A stretch of 64,000 bases of DNA from Flavobacterium croceum DSM 17960 (GTDB lineage: Bacteria > Bacteroidota > Bacteroidia > Flavobacteriales > Flavobacteriaceae). Both the position numbers and the translations under genes were made by a program. The stretch is taken from positions 1-64,000 of the forward strand of contig NZ_PQNY01000012.1 in NCBI RefSeq assembly GCF_002917885.1, given 5' to 3'. Positions 7,966-41,069 of the stretch are shown here, one piece after another (position 1 is the stretch's first letter; the number at the start of each line of letters is the position of its first letter). The notes below the pieces were generated by a model. That model ran no database searches. It was given only the letters and a program-made list of their open reading frames with translations, and was not told where the DNA came from.

Positions 7966-7992
7966 TTAGATAATCGATACAAGTTGAAATAG

Positions 7993-8025
7993 AAAAAACG
8001 GTTTGCTTAGGCGAACCGTTTTTTT
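7993..8025. terminator. Terminator between pepP and the DUF1398 gene
   Basis: A 12-base stem (AACGGTTTGC paired with GCGAACCGTT, one G-T pair) has a TTAG loop. An A-run precedes it and a T-run follows, so it can stop both converging transcripts. Confidence 0.85.
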
Positions 8026-8045
8026 AAACAACAAATTTTAAAAAA

Positions 8046-8438
8046 TTATAACGAAGGTATTGTTTCTACAATCATTTCTTTTCCAGCCTTGTCGAAATAA
8101 CTACAAGTCATTTTGTCCATTGCTACAATCCATTTCTCCACACCCGATTTTGCGCAGTCTTTTAGAAAAGTCATGTAATCGGTTTTCCCTTGTTGGTGCG
8201 ATTTTAAATCGGCTTTAAATTGTTCGAGATTGCTTTGTTCGGCAATTGTTAGAGTTTCAAAAAAGCCTTCAGATGAGGTTTGAAAATTGTTTATGCCATA
8301 GTACACAGTATGATTGTCAAACACAAAGGTTTCAAAAGCAGTAACACCAAGGGCAATAATATCTTGTATGTATTTCGGAAAATCGGCACCACTTTTTACT
8401 TTGCTATGAGCATCTTTAATTTGTTGAACTGTAAACAT
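8046..8438 (-). CDS. DUF1398 family protein (YbcV-like)
   Basis: This small soluble protein of 130 residues matches the DUF1398 pattern: MFTVQQIKDAHSKVKSG at the N-terminus, then GVTAFETFVFDNHTVYYG, and a C-terminal GVEKWIVAMDKMTCSYFD segment. Family members are single-domain proteins of unknown function, common in Bacteroidota and enterobacteria. No catalytic motif or signal peptide is visible. It lies 16 bases downstream of thiL in the same direction and may be the last gene of the dCMP deaminase-protease-thiL group. Confidence 0.85.
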   Translation of the reverse strand: MFTVQQIKDAHSKVKSGADFPKYIQDIIALGVTAFETFVFDNHTVYYGINNFQTSSEGFFETLTIAEQSNLEQFKADLKSHQQGKTDYMTFLKDCAKSGVEKWIVAMDKMTCSYFDKAGKEMIVETIPSL

Positions 8439-8454
8439 ATATAATAAGTGTTGG

Positions 8455-9501
8455 TTATTCTTCTAGAGCATTCCAACCTCTAGCTTTTAGCGGTATTTTT
8501 GTATGTGCTCGTGTTACCAAATGGCATCCGTTTTCTTTAGGTATTATATGTCCAATTACTGTAAAATTTGGATTGCCTTTTATTTTGTCAAAATCTTCTA
8601 AGTTTATTGTAAACAATAATTCGTAGTCTTCGCCACCATTTATAGCAAGAGTGGTACCGTCTATATTAAACTCTTCACACGTACTAATAAATTGCGGGTC
8701 TACAGGCAATTTTTCTTCATATAAATCGCAACCTACATTTGAGGCTTTACAAATATGTAATAATTCTGACGAAAGTCCATCAGAAATATCAATCATAGAC
8801 GTTGGTTTTACCTCAAGTTTTTCTAATAATTCTTTAATGTCTGTTCTTGCTTCGGGTTTGAGTTGTCGTTCAACTAAGTAGGTATAAGGTTCTAAATCGG
8901 GTTGATTGTTTGGATTTACTAAAAAAACTTGTTTTTCTCTTTCTAGAACTTGTAACCCCATATATGCCGAACCAATATCGCCAGTAACTACAATTAAATC
9001 GTTGGGTTTTGCCCCATTTCTATACACTATGTCTTCTTCTTTTGCTGTTCCAATAGCTGTTATAGATAATATTAATCCTTTTTGAGAAGAAGTGGTATCG
9101 CCACCCACAACATCTACTTTAAAAGTTTTAGATGCTAATGTAATTCCGGCATACAATTCTTCTAATGCTTCTAGAGGAAATCTATTGGAAACCGCTATAG
9201 AAACTGTAATTTGTGTAGGCGTCGCATTCATGGCGCAAATATCAGAAACATTTACAGCAACAGCCTTGTAGCCTAAGTGTTTAAGAGGCATATATGCCAA
9301 ATCAAAATGTACGCCTTCAATAAGTAAATCTGTAGAAATTACAGTTTTTTGAGTGCCAAAATCGAGAACTGCAGCATCATCACCTATGCCAAATTGCGTA
9401 GAAGGTTGGTTTATTTGAAAATGTTTAGTAAGATGTTCTATTAATTGAAATTCACCCAACTGACCTAAAGAGGTACGTTGAGGAGATTTGTCTTCTAGCA
9501 T
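8455..9501 (-). CDS. thiL: Thiamine-monophosphate kinase
   Basis: ThiL phosphorylates thiamine monophosphate to the cofactor thiamine diphosphate using ATP. The AIR-synthase-like fold is recognisable from the N-terminal FGIGDDAAVLDF, then STDLLIEGVHFDL with its metal-binding Asp, and VVGGDTTSS. The C-terminal half has DISDGLSSELLHIC and INGGEDYELLFTI. I chose the ATG at 9501 (MLEDKSPQRTSLGQLGEF, 348 residues). A start at 9558 would overlap the upstream protease gene and add an atypical leader. The length is normal. Confidence 0.95.
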   Translation of the reverse strand: MLEDKSPQRTSLGQLGEFQLIEHLTKHFQINQPSTQFGIGDDAAVLDFGTQKTVISTDLLIEGVHFDLAYMPLKHLGYKAVAVNVSDICAMNATPTQITVSIAVSNRFPLEALEELYAGITLASKTFKVDVVGGDTTSSQKGLILSITAIGTAKEEDIVYRNGAKPNDLIVVTGDIGSAYMGLQVLEREKQVFLVNPNNQPDLEPYTYLVERQLKPEARTDIKELLEKLEVKPTSMIDISDGLSSELLHICKASNVGCDLYEEKLPVDPQFISTCEEFNIDGTTLAINGGEDYELLFTINLEDFDKIKGNPNFTVIGHIIPKENGCHLVTRAHTKIPLKARGWNALEE

Positions 9502-28974: not shown

Positions 28975-29040
28975 ATAATTAGATAATTTGTCAATGAGAT
29001 AATTTGTTTTCAAATTGACATATTTCTAAATTGATACATT
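28975..29040. repeat. AT-rich intergenic repeat-like segment with inverted words
   Basis: The gap before the NifU-domain gene is made of recurring words (ATAATTTG twice, TTGTCAAT and its inverse ATTGACA, AAATTGA). The inverted pair TGTCAAT/ATTGACA could form a hairpin. It resembles flavobacterial intergenic repeats I have seen, but a genome-wide count is needed to confirm. Confidence 0.35.
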
Positions 29041-29041
29041 A

Positions 29042-29284
29042 ATGAGTATGACACACGAAGAATTAACCCAAAATATTGAAAAGGCATTAGCAGAAATACG
29101 CCCATTTTTAAATTCTGATGGAGGAGATGTTCACTTAGTTGCTATAGAAGATGAAAAACATGTAAAGGTAAAATTTGAAGGTACTTGTACCCATTGTAGC
29201 GTAAACCAAATGACACTAAAAGCTGGTGTAGAAACTACCATAAAAAAATACGCTCCACAAATCGAAACCGTTATAAATATTTAG
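29042..29284 (+). CDS. NifU C-terminal domain protein (Nfu-type Fe-S scaffold)
   Basis: The 80-residue protein is a bare Nfu domain: IEKALAEIRPFLNSDGGDVHLVAI at the N-terminus, then the CxxC cluster-binding motif in EGTCTHCSVNQMTLK, ending in ETTIKKYAPQIETV. Nfu proteins hold a bridging 4Fe-4S cluster as dimers and pass it to target enzymes. It is directly downstream of the Mrp ATPase gene, which suggests co-expression. Start ATG at 29042; a second ATG two codons on is an alternative. Confidence 0.93.
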   Translation: MSMTHEELTQNIEKALAEIRPFLNSDGGDVHLVAIEDEKHVKVKFEGTCTHCSVNQMTLKAGVETTIKKYAPQIETVINI

Positions 29285-29486
29285 TTGAATAGTAGTTGTT
29301 GTTATAACAATAAATCTCCAAATTTATTCTTTAAGCGCACTGCAATTATTTCAAAAAATAAATAAAGAATACTATTTTATGTCTAATGTACGATTGTAAC
29401 ACAAGTAACATAAGCCATAAAAACTGATATTTATCATACTACTGAGCCTCATAAACCACCAAATTTGCAACACTAATTAATTAAAC

Positions 29487-30539
29487 ATGATAGAAACCGA
29501 TATACTCATAATAGGAGCAGGCCCTACTGGGCTTTTTGCAGTTTTCGAAGCAGGATTATTACAATTAAAATGTCATATCATAGATGCTTTACCTCAACCA
29601 GGTGGCCAATTGGCAGAATTATATCCTAAAAAACCTATTTTTGATATACCTGGTTATCCAGAAGTTTTGGCAGGCGATTTGGTAAACAATTTAATGGAGC
29701 AAATAAAACAGTTTCAACCTGGTTTTACTTTGGCAGAAACAGCAGAAACTATAGATAAACTAGATGACGGAACGTTTATTGTTACAACCAACAAAGGCAC
29801 AAAACATTACGCAAAAGCTGTAGCTATTGCAGGTGGTTTAGGCACATTTGAACCAAGAAAACCAGCCCTAGAAAATATTTCTTTTTACGAAGAAAAGGGC
29901 GTGGAATATTTTGTAAAAGATCCAGAATTGTTTAGAGATAAAGATATTGTAATTGCTGGTGGAGGCGATTCTGCTTTAGATTGGAGTATTTTTTTGTCAA
30001 ATGTTGCTAAAACCGTTACTTTGGTACATAGAAGAAACGAATTTAGAGGAGCTTTAGATTCTGTAGAAAAAGTACAAGAATTAAAAAAACTAGGAAAAAT
30101 AAACCTAATAACTCCAGCAGAAGTAGTAGCAATACAAGGTGTAGATCATGTAGAAAGCATTACTTTGGATAAAAATGGGGAGCAAGAAACAATAAAAACA
30201 GATTATTTTATACCACTTTTTGGGCTTACACCCAAACTAGGTGCTATTGCAAATTGGGGCTTAGAAATAGAGAAAAATGCCATAAAAGTAAATAATGCTT
30301 TAGATTACCAAACCAATATTGACGGAATTTATGCTATAGGTGATGTCAATATTTACCCAGGTAAATTAAAACTTATTTTATGCGGTTTTCATGAGGCAAC
30401 ACTTATGTGTCAAAGTGTGCACAATCGTATCAATCCAGGTAAAAAGTATGTGTTGAAATACACTACAGTTTCTGGAGTAGATGGTTTTGATGGCACTAGA
30501 AAAGAAGCTGAAAAAGCAGTTGTAAAATCGATAGATTAA
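29487..30539 (+). CDS. Ferredoxin-NADP reductase, thioredoxin-reductase-like type
   Basis: The 350-residue flavoprotein has an N-terminal FAD motif (LIIGAGPTGLFAVFEAG), a central NADPH domain (IVIAGGGDSALDWSIFL, then LVHRRNEFRG) and a C-terminal FAD motif (GIYAIGDVNIYPGKLKLI). It lacks the CxxC of thioredoxin reductase, which fits the FNR type found in Firmicutes and Bacteroidota that reduces ferredoxin or the reverse. A ferredoxin gene lies 667 bases downstream, but two small genes of another kind have come between them. The 202-base gap upstream holds TGTAAC and GTAACA words (near 29395-29410) and no clear promoter. Confidence 0.93.
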   Translation: MIETDILIIGAGPTGLFAVFEAGLLQLKCHIIDALPQPGGQLAELYPKKPIFDIPGYPEVLAGDLVNNLMEQIKQFQPGFTLAETAETIDKLDDGTFIVTTNKGTKHYAKAVAIAGGLGTFEPRKPALENISFYEEKGVEYFVKDPELFRDKDIVIAGGGDSALDWSIFLSNVAKTVTLVHRRNEFRGALDSVEKVQELKKLGKINLITPAEVVAIQGVDHVESITLDKNGEQETIKTDYFIPLFGLTPKLGAIANWGLEIEKNAIKVNNALDYQTNIDGIYAIGDVNIYPGKLKLILCGFHEATLMCQSVHNRINPGKKYVLKYTTVSGVDGFDGTRKEAEKAVVKSID

Positions 30540-30557
30540 ATTTTTTATATTTGTAAT

Positions 30558-30770
30558 ATGGAAAGTATAAAATTGGATAGAAGTGTTACGAGTAAATCTT
30601 CATTTCAAGAAGCTGACGATCATGTAACTTTTTACAAAGATAAAACACCTCTTGAGCGTTTAAATTATGCTTGCGATATTATAAATTCTATTTTTGATTC
30701 AAGTCCAGAAAAAAAAGTAGATAGAACAGTTTTTTCTTCAAGAAAACATGCCCAACTTATTCAATATTGA
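30558..30770 (+). CDS. Small protein paired with a nucleotidyltransferase gene
   Basis: The 70-residue hydrophilic protein (MESIKLDRSVTSKSSFQEAD, then KTPLERLNYACDIINSIF, DRTVFSSRKHAQLIQ) has no signal peptide or membrane segment. It is followed, with a 23-base overlap, by an MNT-fold nucleotidyltransferase gene. I recall the same two-gene order in other Bacteroidota, which suggests a toxin-antitoxin-like unit in which this would be the regulatory partner. The sequence itself shows no DNA-binding motif. The pair sits inside the reductase-ferredoxin operon. Confidence 0.75.
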   Translation: MESIKLDRSVTSKSSFQEADDHVTFYKDKTPLERLNYACDIINSIFDSSPEKKVDRTVFSSRKHAQLIQY

Positions 30771-31206
30771 TTTTTTAGAATTTTTACAACTTTTAGATAA
30801 ACATGAAGTTGATTATTTATTAGTAGGAGGGTATGCTGTAATTCTCCATGGCTATGGAAGAAGTACAGGAGATATGGATTTGTGGATAAATAAAACTACC
30901 CAAAATTATAATAAATTAAAGTTGGTTTATCAAGATTTTGGAGTTCCTGTTTTTTCAATTGATGATTTTGAAAGCGAAAAAATTGATGTTTGGAGTATTG
31001 GAATAGAACCAAGAAAGATTGAAATATTGACTAAAGTAAGTGGTTTAAGTTTTAATGAGGCATTCAAAAATCGTTTATTCTTAAATCTAGAAAACTTTAA
31101 AGTTCCCTATATCGATTTTGAAGATTTAATTAAAAATAAATTAACTTCTGGAAGATTTAAAGATTTAGCAGATATTGAACAATTAAAAAAATTGAAAGAA
31201 AACTAA
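30748..31206 (+). CDS. Nucleotidyltransferase-fold protein (AbiEii/DUF6036-like)
   Basis: The 152-residue protein shows the minimal nucleotidyltransferase core: a helix ending in VDYLLVGGYAVILHG, then GRSTGDMDLWI with the two metal-binding acidic residues (D-M-D), and a C-terminal YIDFEDLIKNKLTSGRFKDLADIEQL. Proteins of this AbiEii-like group act as toxins that nucleotidylate tRNA or other targets, or as antitoxins; the substrate here is unknown. Its start overlaps the small upstream gene, and its stop overlaps the ferredoxin ATG by one base (TAATG). Expression is therefore likely coupled through the whole operon. Confidence 0.82.
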   Translation: MPNLFNIDFLEFLQLLDKHEVDYLLVGGYAVILHGYGRSTGDMDLWINKTTQNYNKLKLVYQDFGVPVFSIDDFESEKIDVWSIGIEPRKIEILTKVSGLSFNEAFKNRLFLNLENFKVPYIDFEDLIKNKLTSGRFKDLADIEQLKKLKEN

Positions 31207-31538
31207 TGCTACAAGACGTAACAGTTTATATTACAGATAGAAACGGAGTTCGACACGAAGTACAAGCTCCTACAGATATGAATATGAATATTATGGAACT
31301 CATTCGTGCTTATGAACTCGCCGAAGAAGGAACCGTAGGAGTTTGTGGCGGAATGGCCATGTGCGCATCTTGTCAATGCTACGTATTAAATGATGTTATT
31401 TCATTAGAAAGAAACCCAGATGAAGAAGCCATGCTTTGGGAAGCCTATCATGTTAAAGATAATTCTCGATTAGGATGTCAAATACCTATTACCGAAGATA
31501 TTAATGGTTTAGAAATAGAAATAGCTCCAGAACAATAA
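31206..31538 (+). CDS. 2Fe-2S ferredoxin, adrenodoxin type
   Basis: The 110-residue ferredoxin has the ligand pattern C-x5-C-x2-C in CGGMAMCASCQCYV and a fourth Cys in RLGCQIPIT, the adrenodoxin/Isc-ferredoxin arrangement. It is the probable partner of the reductase at 29487-30539. Its ATG overlaps the stop of the nucleotidyltransferase gene by one base. It ends the operon. Confidence 0.94.
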   Translation: MLQDVTVYITDRNGVRHEVQAPTDMNMNIMELIRAYELAEEGTVGVCGGMAMCASCQCYVLNDVISLERNPDEEAMLWEAYHVKDNSRLGCQIPITEDINGLEIEIAPEQ

Positions 31539-31632
31539 AAAAGATAGAATTAATTTTAGCTTTTTTTGTAACAAAATTTTAACACTTGCGTATAATCAAA
31601 ATATCCTACTATAATAATTGGGTTTTATTTTG

Positions 31633-31995
31633 ATGCATCACAACACGTATTCTCCAGGACTTCACAAATTAGTTACTCTTCAAGTAAATAATTTAGAAAA
31701 ACTTACCAATAGTTTAGCCTTTATCAATTTTTCAAATCAAATAATTGTAGAAAATGGTTTAGAAAAAGTAGGCGAGATTACACATAATTTTGAGAATAAT
31801 AGTTTCACTATTGCTTTTTGTTTAAAAGAATCACACATTTGTATACATACTTGGCCCGAGTTTAAACAACTCACTCTCGACGTATATTTATGTAATTATT
31901 TACAAGATAATTCTGCAAAAGTTAAAGTTATAACTGAAAAGTTTATAGAATATTTCCAAGCAGTTGTTTTAAAAGAATTTGAAATCAATAGGTAA
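31633..31995 (+). CDS. speH: S-adenosylmethionine decarboxylase, prokaryotic class 1B
   Basis: The enzyme makes decarboxylated SAM, the aminopropyl donor for spermidine. In LKESHICIHTWPEF, Ser67 is the self-cleavage site that becomes the pyruvoyl group. His72 and Cys87 (LDVYLC) follow at +5 and +20, the same spacing as Ser63, His68 and Cys83 of the Thermotoga enzyme, so all catalytic residues are present. I chose the ATG at 31633 (120 residues) over an earlier TTG. It leads a seven-gene run that also encodes a membrane aminopropyltransferase, so the product is probably used by its neighbour. Confidence 0.93.
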   Translation: MHHNTYSPGLHKLVTLQVNNLEKLTNSLAFINFSNQIIVENGLEKVGEITHNFENNSFTIAFCLKESHICIHTWPEFKQLTLDVYLCNYLQDNSAKVKVITEKFIEYFQAVVLKEFEINR

Positions 31996-32000
31996 AAGCT

Positions 32001-33203
32001 ATGGAAATTACTTGTACTAAATGTTCTACAACAACAAAGCTAGATCTTAGTTTTGAGGCTAGTTATTTTGCTTGTCCAAATTGTAAAACAATCTATTTTA
32101 AAGCTAGAAACGATGAGTTTGCTTTTAAGACTTCATGTAGCGAAAAAACATACCTTTATGCCTTTTCTGTTGGCCAAAAAGCTACTTTTAATAATAAAGA
32201 GTATAAGGTAACAGGCGTGTTAATAAAAAAATACAAAAATGTTTTAAGATGGGCAGAGTATATTTTACAAAATTATGAAGGATCGTTTTTGTACCTTTCA
32301 GAGTCAGATGGTAATTTTATTTTGTTGGAAGAAATTGAGTATGAAAAAAAAGTAGGAAACCATCCTTTGGTCATAGAACATGAAAACCTGAGTTTTGATC
32401 AGTATGATTATTCTTATCCTAATTTAAGCTACGCTTCAGGTTTTTTTGATTTTAATATTTTAGAGCGAATAGAACTTATAGAGTATATAAATCCTCCTTA
32501 TATTTTATCATTTGAAAAATTTGAAAAAACACAAATAGCATATTATGGTAAACATATTTCTAGAAGCGCTGTAAAAAAAGCATTCAAAACATCTTCAATA
32601 CCTTCAAAATCAGGAATAGGAGTGGTGCAAGTTTTTCCAATAAATGTTAGAAATTTAGCCATAATATTTTGCACAGTAGCAATACTCATACTCTTTTCTC
32701 AATTATACATAAACAAAGACAGAAAATCTCAAGAAGTATTAAATACTTCGGTTCCGTTTAACGGATTTGTTTCTAAAGATTTTGTGAGTCCTTCATTTGA
32801 ATTAAAAGGAGGTTCGGCACCCTTACAAATTAATGTTTCTTCCAATGTAGATAATTCTTGGGCAAATGTTCAAGTAGCATTGGTAAACGAAATTACCAAC
32901 GAAGAAATTTATGCTTCTAAAGATATAGAATATTACCACGGATATACTGAGGGAGAAAATTGGACAGAAGGGAGTACTACAGAAAACTTCAATATTTGTG
33001 GTGTTTCAGCGGGTAAATATCATGTAACCGTTGTTCCAACCAAAGCACCAGAAGATACTTCAAATAGCTTTGTAACCATTAAAGCTACGTGGAATGAACC
33101 TTCGTTGAGGAATTTTTTTATGACAATAATTTTTATGGCAGTATTTGTAATACTAGTATATTATTGGTCTAAGTATTTTGAATATAAAAGATGGGAGGAA
33201 TAA
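32001..33203 (+). CDS. DUF4178 membrane protein with N-terminal zinc ribbon
   Basis: The 400-residue protein starts with a zinc-ribbon pattern (CTKCSTTTKL and ACPNCKTIYF), followed by a DUF4178 domain (about 50-190; FSVGQKATFNNKEYKVTGVLIKK, YLSESDGNFILLEEIEY). Two transmembrane helices (about 217-232 and 372-392) enclose an extracytoplasmic beta-rich region of about 140 residues. DUF4178 proteins occur with DUF350, AdoMetDC-like and spermidine-synthase-like genes in several phyla; their function is unknown. It starts five bases after speH. Confidence 0.85.
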   Translation: MEITCTKCSTTTKLDLSFEASYFACPNCKTIYFKARNDEFAFKTSCSEKTYLYAFSVGQKATFNNKEYKVTGVLIKKYKNVLRWAEYILQNYEGSFLYLSESDGNFILLEEIEYEKKVGNHPLVIEHENLSFDQYDYSYPNLSYASGFFDFNILERIELIEYINPPYILSFEKFEKTQIAYYGKHISRSAVKKAFKTSSIPSKSGIGVVQVFPINVRNLAIIFCTVAILILFSQLYINKDRKSQEVLNTSVPFNGFVSKDFVSPSFELKGGSAPLQINVSSNVDNSWANVQVALVNEITNEEIYASKDIEYYHGYTEGENWTEGSTTENFNICGVSAGKYHVTVVPTKAPEDTSNSFVTIKATWNEPSLRNFFMTIIFMAVFVILVYYWSKYFEYKRWEE

Positions 33204-33206
33204 TTT

Positions 33207-33389
33207 ATGAGAAATAGTATACATTTTATTAAAGAAAATTATTTGGCTATATTATTAGGTTTGTTCTTCTACGGAGTTTTTTTGTACTATACTATAGAAG
33301 GCAATAGGTTGTGCGATTGCGAATCGACAGAGAATTATAAACCAACAACTTCTAGCCATAGTAGCGTAAATCGTTTTTATCACAAATAA
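33207..33389 (+). CDS. Small single-pass membrane protein
   Basis: The 60-residue protein has one hydrophobic helix (about 13-28, YLAILLGLFFYGVFLYY). A polar tail follows with a C-D-C pair (RLCDCEST) and a Ser/Thr/His-rich end. It starts three bases after the DUF4178 stop, so it is surely translated with it. I do not recognise a family. Its place in the polyamine operon suggests an accessory or assembly role; this is inference. Confidence 0.7.
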   Translation: MRNSIHFIKENYLAILLGLFFYGVFLYYTIEGNRLCDCESTENYKPTTSSHSSVNRFYHK

Positions 33390-33495
33390 AAAGTATAGTA
33401 TATAATCGTCATTTACAATAAGATTGCACAAGCAAGCCACTGTAATTAGAAACACGATTATAAGCTATGTTATAATAAAAATAAATTTTAAACAC

Positions 33496-33705
33496 ATGGA
33501 TACAAATCAAATGATTATCAACTCTTTATTGTTTTCTGCACTTGGAATTGTAATACTTTTTGCAGCTTATTTTATTATTGAAAAAATAACTCCCGAAAAC
33601 ACTTGGAAAAAAATAACTCAAGAAAACAATATAGCTGTTGCTATAGTTTTTGGAGCCTTAATTATTGGAATTTCAATGATTATTAGCGCAGCAATTCATG
33701 GGTAA
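33496..33705 (+). CDS. DUF350 family membrane protein
   Basis: The 69-residue protein has two transmembrane helices (about 9-28 and 45-66). The conserved segment ENNIAVAIVFGALIIGISMIIS is typical of DUF350, and full family members often carry two or more such units. E. coli YjfL belongs to the family, and its genes often neighbour PspA-, spermidine- and ATP-grasp-related genes. The start is the ATG at 33496; an in-frame upstream start at 33424 would add an unlikely leader. The stop overlaps the aminopropyltransferase ATG by eight bases. Confidence 0.85.
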   Translation: MDTNQMIINSLLFSALGIVILFAAYFIIEKITPENTWKKITQENNIAVAIVFGALIIGISMIISAAIHG

Positions 33706-35215
33706 AAATAGAGTTAAGTTTGAATTTTTATTACTTTTTGCCGTTTTTACTATCGCTACTTGTGGTTTAGTTTATGAGTTGGTGGCAGGTACTTTGGCAA
33801 GTTATTTATTGGGCGATTCGGTAAAACAATTCTCATTTATTATTGGAGTCTATCTTTTTTCTATGGGAGTTGGTTCATACTTTTCGAAGTTTATCACCAA
33901 AAATTTACTCAATACTTTTGTAGAAATTGAAATTTTAGTAGGTCTAATTGGCGGATTGAGTTCTGTTGTACTTTTTTTATTGTTTGAAACCGATTTTGCA
34001 TTTCAATTTATTCTTTACTCTTTAGTTTTTGTAACTGGGTGTTTAGTAGGTCTTGAAATACCATTGTTAATGAATATTTTAAAAGACAAAGTAGAATTTA
34101 AAGATCTAGTTTCAAATGTGTTTACCTTTGACTATATTGGTGCTTTACTAGCATCAATTTTGTTTCCCTTACTGTTAGTTCCAAAGCTTGGCATTATGGG
34201 TACATCATTATTCTTCGGAATGATAAATGTATCAATAGCCATCGCTCTATGCTATTTTTTAAAATTAGAATTAAAAAAAGTTATAGTACTGCGAGCAAAA
34301 GCTATAGTCTCTTTTTTGATACTATTTACAGCTTTTATTTTTTCTGAAAATATACTCTCTTTTTCAGAAGGAAAACTATATGGAGAAAATATTATTTATA
34401 CCCACTCAACGCCTTATCAACGAATTGTTTTAACACACAACAAAAACGATTACCGCTTGTATTTAAACAACAACCTCCAGTTTAGTTCTCTAGATGAATA
34501 CCGCTATCACGAGGCACTTGTGCATCCTGCTATGTCTATGGCAACAAAAGTTAGTAATATTTTAGTACTAGGTGGAGGCGATGGTTTGGCAGTTCGAGAA
34601 ATATTAAAATACAAACAGGTACAAAAAATTACAGTTGTAGACCTAGATGAAGGAATGACAAAGTTGTTTAAAACTAATCAAGTTTTAGTAAACTTTAATA
34701 AAAATTCTTTAAACAATTCAAAAGTTACTGTATATAATAAAGACGCATATATTTGGACAAAAGCGTGTAAAGAAAAGTTTGATGTAGTTATTATAGACTT
34801 TCCAGATCCATCAAATTACAGTTTAGGAAAATTATATTCGTTAAACTTTTACAAAACCGTTCAAAACTTACTGCATACTGATGCGGTAGTAGTAATACAA
34901 ACCACTTCGCCCTATTTTGCTCCAAAATCATTTTGGTGTATTAATAAAACCGTCATGAATGTTTTACCTCAAATAGATGCTTATCATGCTTATGTTCCTT
35001 CATTTGGAGAATGGGGCTTCACTATAGCAATCAATGGATTTGGAACTCATTTTAACAAAGTTAATAGAAAGGCTGATGGATTGCGGTTTTACAATTATCA
35101 ATTTGAAAAATACAATTACTTTAACAAAGATATGATTGCTAAAGATATTGAAATTAATAGGCTAGATAATCAAATTTTAGTACGTTATTTTGATGAAGAG
35201 TGGGGGAAATTATAA
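33698..35215 (+). CDS. Membrane-fused spermidine-synthase-like aminopropyltransferase
   Basis: The N-terminal half (about 1-220) has seven hydrophobic helices. The C-terminal half is a spermidine synthase domain: QFSSLDEYRYHEALVHPAM near 265-283 (substrate loop), LGGGDGLAVREIL (SAM-type nucleotide site), TVVDLDEGM, and IIDFPDPSNYSLGKLYS with the acidic pair for amine binding. The key residues of active polyamine aminopropyltransferases are in place. Such membrane-fused versions are widespread, and some are thought to modify amines at the envelope. It overlaps the genes on both sides (8 and 23 bases) and shares the operon with the enzyme that makes its likely donor. Confidence 0.93.
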   Translation: MGKNRVKFEFLLLFAVFTIATCGLVYELVAGTLASYLLGDSVKQFSFIIGVYLFSMGVGSYFSKFITKNLLNTFVEIEILVGLIGGLSSVVLFLLFETDFAFQFILYSLVFVTGCLVGLEIPLLMNILKDKVEFKDLVSNVFTFDYIGALLASILFPLLLVPKLGIMGTSLFFGMINVSIAIALCYFLKLELKKVIVLRAKAIVSFLILFTAFIFSENILSFSEGKLYGENIIYTHSTPYQRIVLTHNKNDYRLYLNNNLQFSSLDEYRYHEALVHPAMSMATKVSNILVLGGGDGLAVREILKYKQVQKITVVDLDEGMTKLFKTNQVLVNFNKNSLNNSKVTVYNKDAYIWTKACKEKFDVVIIDFPDPSNYSLGKLYSLNFYKTVQNLLHTDAVVVIQTTSPYFAPKSFWCINKTVMNVLPQIDAYHAYVPSFGEWGFTIAINGFGTHFNKVNRKADGLRFYNYQFEKYNYFNKDMIAKDIEINRLDNQILVRYFDEEWGKL

Positions 35216-36806
35216 CAGTTCAAGAAGGAATTTTTTTAAAATTTTAGGCTCAACCGTACTGATTGTTCCTTTTCTAGATGCTTGTAAAGAAAAAGTTGTT
35301 ACTTTTTTAATTCGTTTATCGGGAACCAACCATATTTTGGGTCATAAACTTCGAGTTAAAAATTTTCCAAAACCTTCAAAACAAATTCAAATACCTTATT
35401 TAATTGTTGGCGGAGGTATTACAGGTTTATCTGCAGCTAGACAATTTGTTAAAAAAGGCATCTCCGATTTTTTATTGGTAGAACTAGAAAATCATTTGGG
35501 CGGAAATTCTTCAAATAGTCAAAATAAGTATTCTAAATATCCTCTCGGAGCACATTATTTGCCTTTACCAAACCTTGAAGATAAAGAATTATTAAAATTT
35601 CTGGAAGAAGAAAATATTATTCTAGGTTATGATGAAAAAGGATTTCCAAATTTTGATGAGTTGCAACTTACTTTTGCTCCAGATGAGCGTTTGTTTTATA
35701 AAAATAATTGGCAAGAAGGTATTGTTCCTCGAGAAGGAAATTCTACAGCAGAAAACATCGAGTTAAATCGGTTTTTTAAGATGATGGAAGAGTTTAGATC
35801 TAAAAAAGATGCTACAGGACTATATTGGTTTATGATTCCGATGCAACTAAGCTCCAAAGAACCAGAGCTTAAAGAATTGGATAACCTTACAATGAAAGAG
35901 TGGTTGCAAAAACAAAACTTTACATCAAAACCTCTATATACGTATGTAGATTATTGCTGTAGAGACGACTTTGGTTTGGGTATTGAGTTTGTTTCGGCTT
36001 ACGCAGGCATACATTATTTTGCCGCAAGAAAACAAAATAGTAGCCCCGAAAAAACAGAAACCGTATTAACTTGGCCCGAAGGCAATGCAAGACTAGCACA
36101 TCATTTAAAAAAATATTCCACAGAAAAAACATTGAAAAATCATTTGGTTTATGAAGTAAAAATCAAAAATGATAAAGCTGTGGCTTTGGTTTTTGATGAT
36201 AAAACAAAAACTTCTATCGAGATTATTGCCGATAAAATTATTATGGCAACGCCACAATTTGTAAATCAATATTTAGTTGAAGATAGAAAACAATTTACCA
36301 AAAACTTTCATTATGCTCCATGGCTTTTGGCAACATTGGTGGTTTCCGATTTAACTGATAATTCCAGCTTTCCATTGAGTTGGGATAATGTAGCACATGG
36401 TTCAAAAGGATTAGGATATATTTATAATCAACACCAATCTTTGCAGCAAGTTCAAGATAAAAAAGTAATCACTTATTACTATAGTTTTTCATCTTCCGAT
36501 TGCGGAAAAAGCAGAAGAGAAATCTATAAAAAACCAAAAGAATATTGGAAAAATTTAGTAATTAATGATTTAAAAATTTCGCATCCAAACATAGAAGAAG
36601 TAACAGAAAGTATTGATATTCATATTTTAGGACATGGAATGATAAGTCCAAAAACAGGTTTTTTATTTAGTGAGAGCAAACATAAAGCATCAAAATCTAT
36701 TGCTGACAAAATATTTTTTGCTCATAGTGATTTGTCAGGAATTTCAATTTTTGAAGAAGCGTTTCATCAAGGAATTAATGTAGTAAACAAAGTTATTTTA
36801 TCATGA
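35193..36806 (+). CDS. Exported FAD-dependent amine-oxidase-like protein (Tat signal, lipobox)
   Basis: The 537-residue protein begins with a twin-arginine motif (SSRRNFFKI), a short hydrophobic stretch and LDAC, which reads as a lipobox. It is therefore predicted to be folded in the cytoplasm, exported by Tat and lipidated. The FAD-binding Rossmann motif is IPYLIVGGGITGLSAARQF near residues 70-90, followed by LLVELENHLGGNSSN. The C-terminus has FAHSDLSGISIFEEAFHQG, the second FAD block of the amine oxidase superfamily. Its probable substrate is a polyamine or its derivative, inferred from the neighbours. The ATG at 35193 lies within the preceding gene (23-base overlap). Confidence 0.86.
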   Translation: MKSGGNYNSSRRNFFKILGSTVLIVPFLDACKEKVVTFLIRLSGTNHILGHKLRVKNFPKPSKQIQIPYLIVGGGITGLSAARQFVKKGISDFLLVELENHLGGNSSNSQNKYSKYPLGAHYLPLPNLEDKELLKFLEEENIILGYDEKGFPNFDELQLTFAPDERLFYKNNWQEGIVPREGNSTAENIELNRFFKMMEEFRSKKDATGLYWFMIPMQLSSKEPELKELDNLTMKEWLQKQNFTSKPLYTYVDYCCRDDFGLGIEFVSAYAGIHYFAARKQNSSPEKTETVLTWPEGNARLAHHLKKYSTEKTLKNHLVYEVKIKNDKAVALVFDDKTKTSIEIIADKIIMATPQFVNQYLVEDRKQFTKNFHYAPWLLATLVVSDLTDNSSFPLSWDNVAHGSKGLGYIYNQHQSLQQVQDKKVITYYYSFSSSDCGKSRREIYKKPKEYWKNLVINDLKISHPNIEEVTESIDIHILGHGMISPKTGFLFSESKHKASKSIADKIFFAHSDLSGISIFEEAFHQGINVVNKVILS

Positions 36807-37816
36807 TACAACCTTGGATACATAAAGCAAAAACAGATATCTTTTTTATACTAATGCCACCATTTTTTGTGCTAGCAATTGTATTTCTGTTTCAAAAACA
36901 ATTAGCAAAAATAGAACAAGATTATTCTTTTTATACGTGGTTGCTATTGATTGTTTTTGTAGATGTGGCACATGTTTATGCAACATTATTTAAAACTTAC
37001 TTTGTGAAATCAGAATTTATTAGCAGAAAAAAATTATACATTGGATTGCCCGTTTTTTGTTTTCTTTTAGGCTTTGTGTTGTTTCTTTTTGGTAGTAAAG
37101 TGTTTTGGTCTTCATTGGCCTATGTAGCTGTTTTTCATTTTATTAGACAACAGTATGGTTTTATGCGTTTGTATGCAAGAACTGAAGACAAAAGCTATGC
37201 GTGGATTGACAAGTTCGTTATTTATACAGCTACTTTGTATCCAATGCTATATTGGTTTTTATCTCCAAAAAAAGAATTTAACTGGTTTGTTGAAAATGAA
37301 TTTTTTACATATCCAATTCCGTTTTTACTTTATATTCTTACTTGGATTTACTTTATTATAGTGTTTTTCTATGTGGTAAGAACAATGTATTTATTGTTGA
37401 AATATAGATTTTTTAACATTCCAAAAAACGCAGTAATTGTTGGAACATTTTTATCATGGTATTTTGGCATTGTGTATTTTAATAACGATTTGATATTTAC
37501 GTTACTCAATGTTGTATCGCATGGTATTCCTTATATAGCGTTAATTTATGTAACAGAAATAGAGAAGAAAACCAATGAAGATTTAGGTTGTCTAAACAAG
37601 TTTAAACATTACAAAGGGTTGTTGTTTTTTTTAATTTTTTTATTTCTTGTAGCTTCTTTTGAGGAATTTACATGGGATATTTTGGTTTGGCAAGAACAGT
37701 TTTCAAAACCAAAGTTTAATGTTTCGGCATGGCAATTTATTTTAGTGCCTTTGCTTACAGTACCTCAATTTACACATTATTTATTAGATGGTTTTATTTG
37801 GAAAAACAAAAAGTAA
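36803..37816 (+). CDS. Polytopic membrane protein with conserved-looking histidines
   Basis: The 337-residue protein has about eight or nine hydrophobic helices. Histidines recur in or near the membrane: VDVAHVYATLF, AVFHFIRQQYGFMRLYAR, NVVSHGIPYIALIY and FTHYLLDGFIWK. Such spacing suggests binding of a metal or heme, perhaps as electron acceptor for the neighbouring flavoprotein, but I do not recognise the family. The ATG overlaps the preceding stop (ATGA), which indicates coupled translation. It is the last gene of the operon, and its stop directly abuts the stop of the converging phosphoesterase gene. Confidence 0.8.
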   Translation: MIQPWIHKAKTDIFFILMPPFFVLAIVFLFQKQLAKIEQDYSFYTWLLLIVFVDVAHVYATLFKTYFVKSEFISRKKLYIGLPVFCFLLGFVLFLFGSKVFWSSLAYVAVFHFIRQQYGFMRLYARTEDKSYAWIDKFVIYTATLYPMLYWFLSPKKEFNWFVENEFFTYPIPFLLYILTWIYFIIVFFYVVRTMYLLLKYRFFNIPKNAVIVGTFLSWYFGIVYFNNDLIFTLLNVVSHGIPYIALIYVTEIEKKTNEDLGCLNKFKHYKGLLFFLIFLFLVASFEEFTWDILVWQEQFSKPKFNVSAWQFILVPLLTVPQFTHYLLDGFIWKNKK

Positions 37817-38716
37817 TCAACCGCAATAATCGCTCAATTTACGAGGCACTTCAATATATTCTTTTACAATTTGTAGCGTACCATCATCTTTAGTATCAAT
37901 AAACCATTTCACTAAGGCAATAGTTCCTTCTGCAATTTCTATTCCCGTAATACTTCTAGGATGTACACAACTCCCGTCGTTAAAGTAGTTTATAGCATTT
38001 TCGGTCGGACTAGGAAAATGTGGGCGGTGTGTATGACCAACAATTGTAATAATGTTTTTGTTGTTTACAATCCACTGTTTTATTCTACGTTCTACTTTTA
38101 TTTGCTCTAGGTAGTTTTTCGCAGGGCTTGTAGGGTCTTTTATACCCCAAACTTGCAACGGTTTCCACAACACACGAACTAAAAATTTATTGAGCTTCCA
38201 GCCTACATAATTCATAAAATCAGCTTGATGCCCATGAGTTAAAAATAGTTCTTGTCCTGTTTCGGCGTGTTGTAAAACAATACCTTCATAAAATTGTAAA
38301 TGGGGCATTAAAGGAAGTTTTTTACCTTCTGTATTGTCAAAATATTCCGAAAAATTTTTCTTAACAATGTTTGGATTACGGTAAACCATATCATGATTGC
38401 CCCAAATCATGTGAAGTTTGTTTTGTAAATAAAATTTTTGAAGTAGTAAAAACACATTTTTATTAGATTCAAAAATGTCTTTAAAAAATAAGTTTTCCCA
38501 CAACTCATCTCCATCGCCCAATTCGATATACTGAAAACCATTTTGCAGGTATTGTTTCAACGCATGAAAATAAATATTTCGGTTGTTTGCAAAATCATCG
38601 GCAAAACTACCATCACCTCTATGACAATCACTAAACAAAATAAATTTATCTTGATTGTTAAACGAGATTCTTTTGGCTTGTTGGTAGGCTCTTGTAAGTC
38701 GAGTTTGCGAAGACAT
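37817..38716 (-). CDS. Calcineurin-like metallophosphoesterase
   Basis: The 299-residue cytoplasmic protein carries the full metal-binding series of the family: FSDCHRGDG (D-x-H), LGDGDELWEN (G-D-x2-E, here with D-G-D), WGNHDMVYR, LTHGHQAD and GHTHRPHFP. It resembles the UDP-2,3-diacylglucosamine hydrolase (LpxH/YbbF-like) branch, but the substrate is not certain. No signal peptide. Its stop codon touches that of the polyamine operon, so there is no spacer between the converging genes. Confidence 0.9.
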   Translation of the reverse strand: MSSQTRLTRAYQQAKRISFNNQDKFILFSDCHRGDGSFADDFANNRNIYFHALKQYLQNGFQYIELGDGDELWENLFFKDIFESNKNVFLLLQKFYLQNKLHMIWGNHDMVYRNPNIVKKNFSEYFDNTEGKKLPLMPHLQFYEGIVLQHAETGQELFLTHGHQADFMNYVGWKLNKFLVRVLWKPLQVWGIKDPTSPAKNYLEQIKVERRIKQWIVNNKNIITIVGHTHRPHFPSPTENAINYFNDGSCVHPRSITGIEIAEGTIALVKWFIDTKDDGTLQIVKEYIEVPRKLSDYCG

Positions 38717-38853
38717 ATTGGTTTACTAGTAAAAAAGTGATGTTGTTTGTAGCGCCAAAAATACACAGAAAAAATCAATTGTAGTATACCATTGTACAAC
38801 AGTTGGTGTGCTATGAAAACTAAAGTTTAAAGAGGTTGATTTTTGCTCACAAA

Positions 38854-38881
38854 AAAAGAGCTCCAAAATAGGAGCTCTTAA
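38854..38881 (-). terminator. Terminator of the acyl-CoA dehydrogenase gene
   Basis: The 9-base arms AAGAGCTCC and GGAGCTCTT enclose a 6-base loop. In the minus direction seven T follow. It lies 30 bases beyond the stop at 38911. Confidence 0.87.
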
Positions 38882-38910
38882 ATATGTGTAAAATATTTAT
38901 ATTTCTGCTC

Positions 38911-40089
38911 TTACTTAAAAGCAGGCATACCTGTAATATCGGCACCCGTAATCAACAAATGAATATCGTGTGTTCCTTCATAAGTAATTACAGATTCTAA
39001 GTTCATACTATGGCGCATAATAGAATATTCACCTGTAATACCCATTCCGCCAAGCATTTGTCTAGCTTCTCGAGCTATGTTTATAGCCATATCAACATTG
39101 TTTCTTTTCGCCATCGAAATTTGAGCTGTTGTAGCTTTTCCTTCATTTCTTAAAACACCCAAACGCCAAGTTAATAATTGCGCTTTGGTAATTTCGGTTA
39201 TCATTTCGGCCAATTTTTTCTGTTGCAATTGTGTAGCAGCAATAGGTTTGTCAAATTGTACACGCTCTTTGGCATAACGCAAAGCAGTATCATAACAATC
39301 CATAGCAGCACCAATAGCACCCCAAGCAATTCCATAACGAGCAGAATCTAAACACATCATAGGAGCACCTAAACCAGATTTTCCAGGTAATAAATTTTCT
39401 TTTGGAACCTTTACATTATCAAAAATTAACTCGCCAGTTGCCGAAGCACGTAAAGACCATTTGTTGTGTGTTTCAGGCGTAGAAAAACCTTCCATGCCAC
39501 GTTCTACAATAAGTCCGTGAATTCTTCCTTCTTCATTTTTTGCCCAAACAACGGCAATATCTGCAAAAGGAGCATTAGATATCCACATTTTGGCGCCATT
39601 TAATAAATAGTGGTCGCCCATATCTTTAAAATTGGTTACTAAACCACTTGGGTTCGACCCATAGTCAGGCTCTGTGAGTCCAAAACAACCCATAAATTCA
39701 CCTGTAGCTAGTTTTGGTAAATATTTCATGCGTTGCTCTTCGGTTCCAAATTTCCAAATAGGGTACATAACCAAAGACGATTGAACTGATGATGTTGAAC
39801 GCACACCCGAATCGCCTCTTTCAATTTCTTGCATAATCAATCCGTACGAAATTTGGTCTAAACCAGCACCACCATATTCTTCTGGAATATAAGGTCCAAA
39901 ACCACCTATTTCACCCAAACCTTTAATTATTTGTTTTGGAAATTCGGCACGTTGCGCATAATCTTCTATAATAGGAGAAACTTCACGTTTTACCCATGCA
40001 CGAGCAGCATCGCGTACTAATTTGTGCTCTTCTGTTAATAAATCGTCTAGCAAATAATAATCAGGAGCTTGAAATAAATCTGGTTTCAT
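38911..40089 (-). CDS. Acyl-CoA dehydrogenase, glutaryl-CoA dehydrogenase-like
   Basis: The 392-residue flavoenzyme matches the glutaryl-CoA dehydrogenase branch. The catalytic Glu is in VITYEGTHDIHLLI, FAD-contact motifs are CFGLTEPDYGSNPSG and WISNAPFADIAVVWAK, and DSARYGIAWGAIGAA is typical of the branch. In that branch the reaction is oxidation and decarboxylation of glutaryl-CoA to crotonyl-CoA in Lys and Trp breakdown. The Arg expected in the glutarate site cannot be assigned with certainty. It is monocistronic, preceded by a structured repeat. Confidence 0.9.
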   Translation of the reverse strand: MKPDLFQAPDYYLLDDLLTEEHKLVRDAARAWVKREVSPIIEDYAQRAEFPKQIIKGLGEIGGFGPYIPEEYGGAGLDQISYGLIMQEIERGDSGVRSTSSVQSSLVMYPIWKFGTEEQRMKYLPKLATGEFMGCFGLTEPDYGSNPSGLVTNFKDMGDHYLLNGAKMWISNAPFADIAVVWAKNEEGRIHGLIVERGMEGFSTPETHNKWSLRASATGELIFDNVKVPKENLLPGKSGLGAPMMCLDSARYGIAWGAIGAAMDCYDTALRYAKERVQFDKPIAATQLQQKKLAEMITEITKAQLLTWRLGVLRNEGKATTAQISMAKRNNVDMAINIAREARQMLGGMGITGEYSIMRHSMNLESVITYEGTHDIHLLITGADITGMPAFK

Positions 40090-40216
40090 ATCTTCTTAAA
40101 AAATGATTAGTAATTAATGATTTGGTAATGAGTTCAAAAAAACACACAATTACGAAATCGTTTGCAAAATTACAGAAACATTTTTAAGAAATAAGCGAAC
40201 AGGTATTTATTTTTAT

Positions 40217-40286
40217 GGAGCTTTTTCCAGCTTTCGCCTTTATCTCTCCATTTCATTACGAGGATATCGGCTCTATCTGGGCTAGG
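40217..40286 (-). repeat. Structured intergenic repeat, copy B (short form)
   Basis: Read on the minus strand it starts CTAGCCCAGATAGAGCC and ends GCTGGAAAAAGCTCC. Start and end match copy A (11661-11807), with a shorter middle. The end forms AGCT-GGAAAA-AGCT; the equivalent in copy A is GGCT-GGAAAT-AGCT, with one A-T pair replaced by G-T. The copy starts two bases past the trmN6 stop codon, in the direction of transcription. Confidence 0.65.
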
Positions 40287-40287
40287 G

Positions 40288-40995
40288 TTACATTTTTATA
40301 TAAAAATCTTTAGTAAGACTAATATATGCATCAGTATATTGATGCCTTGAGGTTTCAATAACTAATTCATCGGCTGATAAAGTGCTTAATTCGTATCGTT
40401 TAAAAGCCAATAAACTTCTTTTAATTTCTGTAGTTGGAGTGCCTTTTACACGAGTAATTTTTACAGGATAAAGCTCTACTTGAGCACACAAATCAATAAA
40501 CTTTTCTTCTTCTTTATACGGAATTATTACTGCAAAAATCCCGTTTTCTGAAAGTAACAAATCGGCAGCATCGATTAAGTCTTCAAAAGGCAAAGCATCT
40601 TGAAATCGAGCTATATCACGTTGGGTATTATCTGTTTTAAAATCTTCAGAATAAAAAGGCGGATTAGAAATAATTATGTCGTACTCATCTTCGGGTTCAT
40701 CTACAAATTCGTCCAATCCAGCATGAAAGCAAAACAAACGGTCGCTCCAAGGCGAAGTTTCAAAATTTTCTACACACTGTTCGTAGGCCTCTTCATCAAT
40801 TTCAAGAGCATCAATTTGCTCGGCATTGCTGCGTTGCGCTATCATTAACGAAAGTATTCCGGTACCAGCACCAATATCCAAAACCGAATACGGATTATTT
40901 TCAAGAGGACACCATGCACCAAGCAATACAGCATCGGTGCCAATTTTCATAGCACATTGGTCTTGTTGAACCGTAAATTGTTTGAATTTAAACAC
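40288..40995 (-). CDS. trmN6: tRNA1(Val) (adenine(37)-N6)-methyltransferase
   Basis: The 235-residue class I methyltransferase has the SAM-binding motif SVLDIGAGTGILSLM and the N6-adenine motif IIISNPPFYSED (NPPF). The N-terminus FKFKQFTVQQDQCAMKIGTDAVLLGAW is typical of the TrmN6/YfiC group, which methylates A37 of tRNA1-Val. Length is normal. A structured repeat begins immediately after its stop codon. The rimM-rpsP genes lie upstream on the same strand, with a 74-base gap. Confidence 0.9.
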   Translation of the reverse strand: MFKFKQFTVQQDQCAMKIGTDAVLLGAWCPLENNPYSVLDIGAGTGILSLMIAQRSNAEQIDALEIDEEAYEQCVENFETSPWSDRLFCFHAGLDEFVDEPEDEYDIIISNPPFYSEDFKTDNTQRDIARFQDALPFEDLIDAADLLLSENGIFAVIIPYKEEEKFIDLCAQVELYPVKITRVKGTPTTEIKRSLLAFKRYELSTLSADELVIETSRHQYTDAYISLTKDFYIKM

Positions 40996-41069
40996 AGTAA
41001 ATATTGAATAAAGAGTAACGAATATCGATTTTAGAACCTAGCGAATTTTAGATGCCACCAAAATAGTGT

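Follow-up and report, generated by a model that had tools for sequence, protein, structure and literature searches.

A seven-gene cassette of Flavobacterium croceum DSM 17960 probably attaches part of decarboxylated S-adenosylmethionine (dcSAM) to a target outside the inner membrane, and the last Lys of a 60-residue membrane protein encoded in the cassette, here named sp60, is possibly that target. The cassette lies in a 64,000-nucleotide stretch of contig NZ_PQNY01000012.1, referred to below as the window, from a genome of 2.95 Mb. We read it as a streamlined variant of the seven-transmembrane (7TM), or major facilitator superfamily (MFS), spermidine-synthase module, in which the terminal Lys of sp60 would be aminopropylated in the periplasm and then oxidized by a flavin adenine dinucleotide (FAD) protein together with Pol7, a His-rich membrane protein. 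With a probability of about 0.42, this reading must be regarded as tentative. It draws on computed gene content, co-conservation, catalytic residues, charge pattern, twin-Arg and lipobox signals, and tail conservation. The core of the cassette (S-adenosylmethionine decarboxylase or AdoMetDC, DUF350, DUF4178, 7TM-spermidine-synthase and polyamine oxidase) is already published (Ravi et al. 2024, PMC11237479). New here are the topology of the enzyme over 79 aligned rows, the link between AdoMetDC and genomes that harbor Pol7, and the conserved tails of exported partners.

The seven open reading frames (ORFs) occupy positions 31633-37816, all on the + strand. With their transmembrane (TM) segments and Pfam or NCBIfam matches, the features are as follows:

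31633..31995, + strand: AdoMetDC (SpeD class 1b homologue), a pyruvoyl enzyme and the predicted dcSAM source; AdoMet_dc, PF02675, 3.5e-18, and Ser/His/Cys triad spacing.
32001..33203, + strand: zinc-ribbon DUF4178 protein, two TM segments with about 135 residues between them; PF13785, 6.1e-7, hydropathy, and Cys pairs read by eye.
33207..33389, + strand: sp60, single-TM protein of 60 residues with tail NRFYHK, N-in/C-out orientation favored, candidate acceptor; tail conservation and net charge.
33381..33386, + strand: codons of the C-terminal His-Lys of sp60; tail comparison.
33496..33705, + strand: DUF350 protein (YjfL family), short two-helix form; PF03994, 3.4e-14, and hydropathy.
33698..35215, + strand: 7TM-aminopropyltransferase fusion, TM domain at about residues 1-220 and catalytic domain at about 229-505; NF002956, 4e-191, and Spermine_synth, 6.8e-38.
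35193..36806, + strand: FAD amine-oxidase-family protein, predicted lipoprotein of the twin-arginine translocation (Tat) pathway; Amino_oxidase, PF01593, 8e-10, and R12, R13 and C32 in 14/14 homologues.
36803..37816, + strand: Pol7, polytopic protein of no named family; invariant D54, H57, H112, H240, H325 and D329.

The coordinates confirm the single strand and the overlap of the last four genes, both of which a first-pass annotation made from the sequence alone had pointed out: the DUF350 stop (33705) lies beyond the synthase start (33698), the synthase stop (35215) beyond the FAD start (35193), and the FAD stop (36806) beyond the Pol7 start (36803). For the FAD gene, the ATG at 35193 is a likelier start than the listed TTG at 35190. 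The domains named in that annotation (DUF4178, DUF350, a spermidine synthase domain with seven helices, and an FAD amine-oxidase-like protein) were likewise recovered by Pfam and NCBIfam matches and hydropathy. Neither sp60 nor Pol7 matched any Pfam family at E <= 1.

The enzyme at the center of the cassette belongs to the polyamine aminopropyltransferase family NF002956 of NCBIfam (635.9 bits, cut-off 472) and carries seven TM segments, while the SpeE equivalog TIGR00417 is not reached (137.8 vs 249.55 bits). In an alignment of 79 rows, 78 of them different, the acidic residue of the GGG(D/E)G motif that binds dcSAM (D295 in the window) is D or E throughout, and both D residues of DxxD are kept in all rows. 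When the segments of the window enzyme were mapped onto this alignment, all 79 rows showed seven hydrophobic segments, and charge placed the N-terminus inside in every one, with a mean of 9.6 Lys and Arg residues (K+R) inside versus 1.4 outside. An odd number of helices combined with an inside N-terminus puts the catalytic domain outside the cytoplasm; hence, the domain is predicted to be periplasmic, and dcSAM would have to cross the membrane. The first-pass annotation had coupled dcSAM to a membrane aminopropyltransferase; the coupling is supported, but charge places the transferase domain on the outer side. In addition, the PADLOC model mad2 matches part of the synthase domain (window 34541-34954, 1.4e-14), probably because of a shared fold only; PADLOC gave no other match, and this one is partial. 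No defence system was suggested.

The most striking part of the cassette is sp60, because of its conserved C-terminal Lys. The window protein ends in His-Lys, and among 43 loci of the same kind (type A), 41 have a positional counterpart with a C-terminal Lys. A His-Lys end is found in 37 of these 41 tails, with both His codons in use (CAT 20, CAC 17). As background, 857 long ORFs of the same loci include 122 that end in K (14%), three in HK and six in GK. At type B loci the partner is a lipoprotein, and a GK end is present in 18/18 loci that match the lipoprotein profile, which was built without the last 25 residues and from six of the 18. Partners that lie beside a GSP_synth-type gene end in GG in three of three cases, two of which built the GG profile (PF03738 was tested for L109, 1e-75). 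In Escherichia coli, YjfM and YgiB also end in GG and lie beside YjfC and YgiC, annotated as peptide-spermidine ligase. His-Lys also terminates the counterpart on one plasmid of Alphaproteobacteria (L120), whereas the tails on another such plasmid (L123) and on a plasmid from a gemmatimonad (L119) have Lys ends of other kinds.

The location of these tails was also considered. A lipobox is present in the tail protein at seven of the eight listed type B loci, which makes the tail extracytoplasmic. For sp60, an N-in/C-out orientation is favored, as net charge near the TM segment points that way in 33 of 41 proteins, with two opposite and six ties. Fusions of a Lys-tailed segment to the DUF4178 protein were seen in L115 (7760-8464), L015, L022 and L101, suggesting that both work together.

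Altogether, 77 loci were examined: 64 were assigned a tail (41 type A, 20 type B and three GG), nine had none, L121 was uncertain, and L023 (same cluster as L117), L152 (partner contig of L153) and L158 (no gene match) stand outside the counts. Type A tails were taken by rule at loci with DUF4178 and a short DUF350: the frame chosen was the open, TM-bearing one whose end falls between these two genes, or, where the counterpart is fused to DUF4178 (L015, L022, L101), the tail was read from the end of the DUF4178 frame. The rule yielded 34 rows, of which seven (L018, L049, L062, L123, L129, L136, L137) had other open frames without a Lys end, and the choice was made by position and homology. Seven more rows were placed by hand: L012, L019, L021, L103 (DUF350 frame over-extended), L052 (TM score 1.25 vs a limit of 1.4), L127 (no DUF350 match) and L144 (other gene order). 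The two type A misses are L106 (no tail found) and L135 (broken frames). Of the 20 type B tails, 18 came from a profile match, whereas L115 (fused) and L122 rest on visual inspection. Near-copies are included, and L011/L012, L015/L022 and L112/L113 are close relatives, so the tail counts are not independent events.

The FAD protein carries the motif SRRNFFK and a lipobox Cys, and the twin Arg and the Cys (R12, R13, C32) are invariant in all 14 aligned homologues. The protein is therefore predicted to be a Tat lipoprotein, in line with the exported flavoprotein of the first-pass annotation. Its Amino_oxidase domain scores 39.0 bits (threshold 19.8); no polyamine-oxidase equivalog was over its cut-off among the NCBIfam matches listed (25 of 32).

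The six invariant residues of Pol7, four of them His, are kept in 18 near and nine distant rows. No match to Pol7 was found in Pfam, NCBIfam or PDB. We can only guess that the conserved His and Asp residues bind heme or a metal and might pass on electrons from the flavin. Ancestry from the Brp/Blh carotene dioxygenases (BCD) was considered and found no support (hhalign probability 0.2%, against the two usable sequences that six BCD loci gave). Larger stand-alone relatives of Pol7 (355-441 residues; L053-L059, L061, L063) have the same invariant His and Asp residues, and the scanned ones are over no named-family cut-off. The neighborhoods of five of the nine aligned distant stand-alone homologues gave no functional clue.

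These observations can be arranged into a mechanism. AdoMetDC would make dcSAM in the cytoplasm, and the membrane half of the fusion enzyme would carry or receive it, perhaps helped by DUF350, with the catalytic domain in the periplasm. Putrescine is the usual acceptor of the spermidine-synthase fold. Here, the aminopropyl group would go to an envelope acceptor, not to free putrescine, and the likeliest candidate is the side-chain amine of the C-terminal Lys of sp60, whose tail would sit on the periplasmic surface of the inner membrane. Like putrescine, the Lys side chain presents an aminobutyl group, and its reaction with dcSAM would yield N-epsilon-aminopropyl-lysine. Oxidation of the added amine in the periplasm by the Tat-exported FAD lipoprotein, acting with Pol7, would follow; for a flavoprotein of this fold, a spermidine dehydrogenase with a Tat signal (PMC11107197) offers a precedent. 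A generalization, which we consider rather doubtful, is that such enzymes are periplasmic protein aminopropyltransferases, each with a self-encoded exported acceptor modified at its last Lys (HK or GK). Sister systems with ATP-grasp ligases would use a GG acceptor for spermidine, dcSAM would pass through the transporter-like half of the enzyme, and FAD-Pol7 would oxidize the modified Lys in the cassette described here.

The most serious alternative, which the first-pass annotation had proposed, is that the enzyme aminopropylates a small or lipid amine of the envelope (a periplasmic polyamine or an amine lipid) and that the FAD protein oxidizes the product; sp60 would then be just an assembly or regulatory subunit. 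In its favor, the FAD protein is nearest by sequence to the polyamine oxidase FMS1, in residues 67-167 only. Foldseek searches with a weak model of the protein returned amine oxidases, with putrescine oxidase and spermidine dehydrogenase among them and TM-scores of roughly 0.3-0.45, a likeness at the fold level only. The spermidine dehydrogenase of Pseudomonas aeruginosa carries a Tat signal (PMC11107197). Yet a small or lipid acceptor leaves unexplained why Lys so commonly terminates exported partners of different build and why GG ends occur beside a ligase, and we regard this alternative as unlikely.

The C-terminal Lys of sp60 might also serve as an anchor joined to peptidoglycan, while the transferase tunes or blocks the joining or acts elsewhere. 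Braun's lipoprotein uses its C-terminal Lys in this manner. The Lys end of sp60 is compatible with such anchoring, and so is the extracytoplasmic tail that the lipobox implies for type B partners; however, the GG tails that accompany ATP-grasp ligases do not fit, and anchoring seems improbable.

The dcSAM for such a reaction is predicted to come from AdoMetDC. The window protein has the catalytic Ser, with His at +5 and Cys at +20, which bears out the spacing reported in the first-pass annotation and is the same as in the Thermotoga maritima enzyme (S63/H68/C83; PMC10407285). PF02675 membership holds, the AdoMetDC equivalog TIGR03330 is not reached (61.9 vs 75.65 bits), and the Pro of HTWPE is kept in 53 of 54 aligned homologues. 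Among 28 chosen genomes, the AdoMetDC family was found in 17/17 with intact Pol7 and in 0/11 others (10 congeners without Pol7, plus G405). The deoxyhypusine-synthase family, which includes the homospermidine synthase SpeY (PMC10407285), was present in 27 of the 28, with or without the cassette, the exception being G059 (83% complete). In the genome of F. croceum itself, the only other Spermine_synth match over the cut-off reads GVAGGS at the position of the acidic residue, and one further match lies under the cut-off. Taken together, these data suggest that dcSAM serves the cassette and not bulk polyamines, and housekeeping polyamine synthesis looks separate from the cassette. Ordinary cytoplasmic spermidine synthesis by a membrane-tethered enzyme, which the intact catalytic residues would permit, is very improbable, opposed as it is by the charge topology, the shortfall against the SpeE equivalog and the presence of a deoxyhypusine-synthase-family gene irrespective of the cassette.

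Several observations weigh against a periplasmic modification of sp60. The enzyme topology derives only from hydropathy and charge, with loop limits mapped from the window; assessed protein by protein, seven segments and an inside N-terminus were obtained in 16 of 17 enzymes, and L052 showed only six segments. By K+R alone, the orientation of sp60 is N-in in 19 proteins, opposite in nine and tied in 13, and over the whole tail the window protein has two K+R inside and four outside. A conserved tail does not prove that sp60 is a substrate. Moreover, the enzyme occurs without a detected Lys or GG tail in nine of the 77 loci (L105, L106, L135, L139, L140, L142, L143, L145, L146), and for five of the nine, which belong to a single family, DUF350 and AdoMetDC are likewise missing from the stretch seen. 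The catalytic Cys of AdoMetDC is replaced by Ser in 14 of the 54 aligned homologues, and relatives of the enzyme can be ornithine or arginine decarboxylases (PMC10407285). Finally, the model of the FAD protein has a predicted local distance difference test (pLDDT) score of 55.9, and the AlphaFold2 model of Pol7, made with six sequences, one of 48.

Co-conservation extends beyond close relatives, which was one of the points on which the first-pass annotation had staked its proposal. The genome search yielded five named loci, four from Flavobacterium and one from Paenimyroides baculatum. The order of the six larger genes is kept in 12 of 12 loci (L011-L022); a tblastn search recovered sp60 at 10 of them, while at the remaining two the DUF4178 protein ends in a fused counterpart of it. 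A second set of seven loci shows these six genes in the same order throughout: L062 comes from another congener, and L047-L052 represent three more families within the order and class. Pol7 is patchy in the genus (8/37 genomes, the window's own included), and among 392 Bacteroidota genomes there were strong matches in 11, a decayed copy in one (G405) and weak matches to distant homologues in 11 more. The 7TM enzyme is over its cut-off in 27 of the 392, and 11 of these 27 have a strong Pol7 match; two of the other 16 have FAD without Pol7, and 14 have neither in the stretch fetched. A side observation concerns G405 (L060), where only decayed Pol7 pieces remain at 9073-9389 and the genome has no AdoMetDC family match; we read it as a cassette being lost.

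Two of those 14 genomes, G313 and G345, belong to congeners that possess the remaining cassette genes. In G313 these are flanked on one side by the ferredoxin gene and on the other by the metallophosphatase and acyl-CoA dehydrogenase genes; the arrangement matches that of the window except that three additional genes are interspersed in the second flank (by eye); for G345 only the metallophosphatase/acyl-CoA dehydrogenase flank was available for comparison. Among 16 searched congeners without Pol7, a metallophosphatase or dehydrogenase gene lies at most 1.5 kb beside the ferredoxin gene in seven, and nine are unsettled, with short flanks; in L165 the metallophosphatase is 45 bases from the ferredoxin gene. 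The cassette therefore looks accessory at a fixed site, at least in part of the genus.

In a tree of the 79 enzymes, those associated with FAD and Pol7 fall into two groups, 31 rows in a type A clade (near-copies and L135, with split frames, included) and six in a distant type B clade. The groups lie on two sides of starred branches, and at least four gains or losses of the label are required. FAD and Pol7 could have joined the enzyme twice, or once long ago with later losses; under either history, the pairing in two clades argues for a functional tie to the enzyme. A Novosphingobium plasmid carries an SPFH gene, two DUF4178 genes, a 48-residue protein, DUF350, the enzyme, FAD and speD, with no Pol7 match.

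Operons that combine 7TM-spermidine synthase with DUF350, DUF4178, PspA and a lipoprotein were described by Ravi et al. 2024 (PMC11237479), who also report variants that include AdoMetDC and polyamine oxidase. Their CesT/Tir-PspA operons share with the cassette the 7TM-synthase, DUF350, DUF4178, AdoMetDC, an oxidase and a small exported partner; the cassette differs in having sp60 in place of the lipoprotein (Ctha_1186), a short DUF350 and Pol7 in addition. PspA and CesT profiles gave no match at E <= 1e-3 in window 29001-41000, which sets the cassette apart from CesT/Tir-PspA operons (band-7 was not profiled). Mixed arrangements exist: G059, a member of another family of the order, has a PspA gene in the same stretch as a 7TM enzyme accompanied by Pol7 and FAD; facing this enzyme is a second one whose set comprises a long DUF350, a lipoprotein, DUF4178, an ion channel, AdoMetDC, PspA and CesT. 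Two 7TM enzymes are also present in each of L149 and L150, and in both loci Pol7 and FAD accompany just one of them. The type B operons of L155 and L156 contain only one enzyme, which is accompanied by Pol7 and FAD; L155 has PspA and CesT as well.

The E. coli yjfIJKLMC and ygiBC genes resemble the cassette in the DUF350 of the yjf operon and in an exported partner with fixed C-terminal residues; they differ in having a ligase and a GG tail, and the stretches seen carry no annotated aminopropyltransferase. AdoMetDC with an MFS-SpdSyn fusion and DUF350 was reportedly described by Li et al. 2019 (Biochem J), along with the idea of a non-polyamine acceptor; such fusions reportedly do not substitute for SpeE, a further point against ordinary spermidine synthesis. 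That system has the cassette core in common with ours, whereas a specific acceptor and a periplasmic site are proposed here. A precedent is a fungal enzyme (PMC10349129) that likewise has seven helices followed by a spermidine-synthase-like domain and acts on secreted proteins: it methylates their N-terminal His and resides in the endoplasmic reticulum, and the modification was abolished when the TM region was removed. It differs in transferring a methyl group and in lacking the acidic GxG(D/E)G residue present in the window enzyme.

The first-pass annotation knew of no described function for the full set. Most of the set is described in PMC11237479. Pol7, sp60 and the tails found no mention in a literature search that did not extend to supplements, and the tails may stand in Li 2019 or Iyer 2009. 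The interpretation in the first-pass annotation was right in outline, with novelty overstated for the core and understated for the 60-residue protein, which it had listed without comment.

Other observations can be summarized briefly. Two small genes (window 30558-31206) lie between the ferredoxin reductase and ferredoxin genes, and one is nucleotidyltransferase-like by eye (perhaps toxin-antitoxin-like); unlike in the window, the reductase and ferredoxin genes are almost adjacent in L016-L018 and L159. In one bacterial family (L139, L140, L142, L143, L145), where the stretch seen shows neither DUF350 nor AdoMetDC nor a partner with a Lys tail, the 7TM enzyme may have another function. In L143, five identical short ORFs with a spacing of 154 bases form a direct repeat that adjoins the enzyme gene (7775-8507).

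The substrate of the widespread 7TM-spermidine-synthase fusion is a standing question, and PMC11237479, which cites Li et al. 2019, puts forward "aminopropylation of other substrates". The C-terminal Lys that recurs in exported partners, both in Bacteroidota and on plasmids from Pseudomonadota and Gemmatimonadota, points to a concrete, testable acceptor and compartment. If true, the proposal would add a novel type of protein modification and a novel role for dcSAM, one that related loci connect with envelope stress through their PspA systems.

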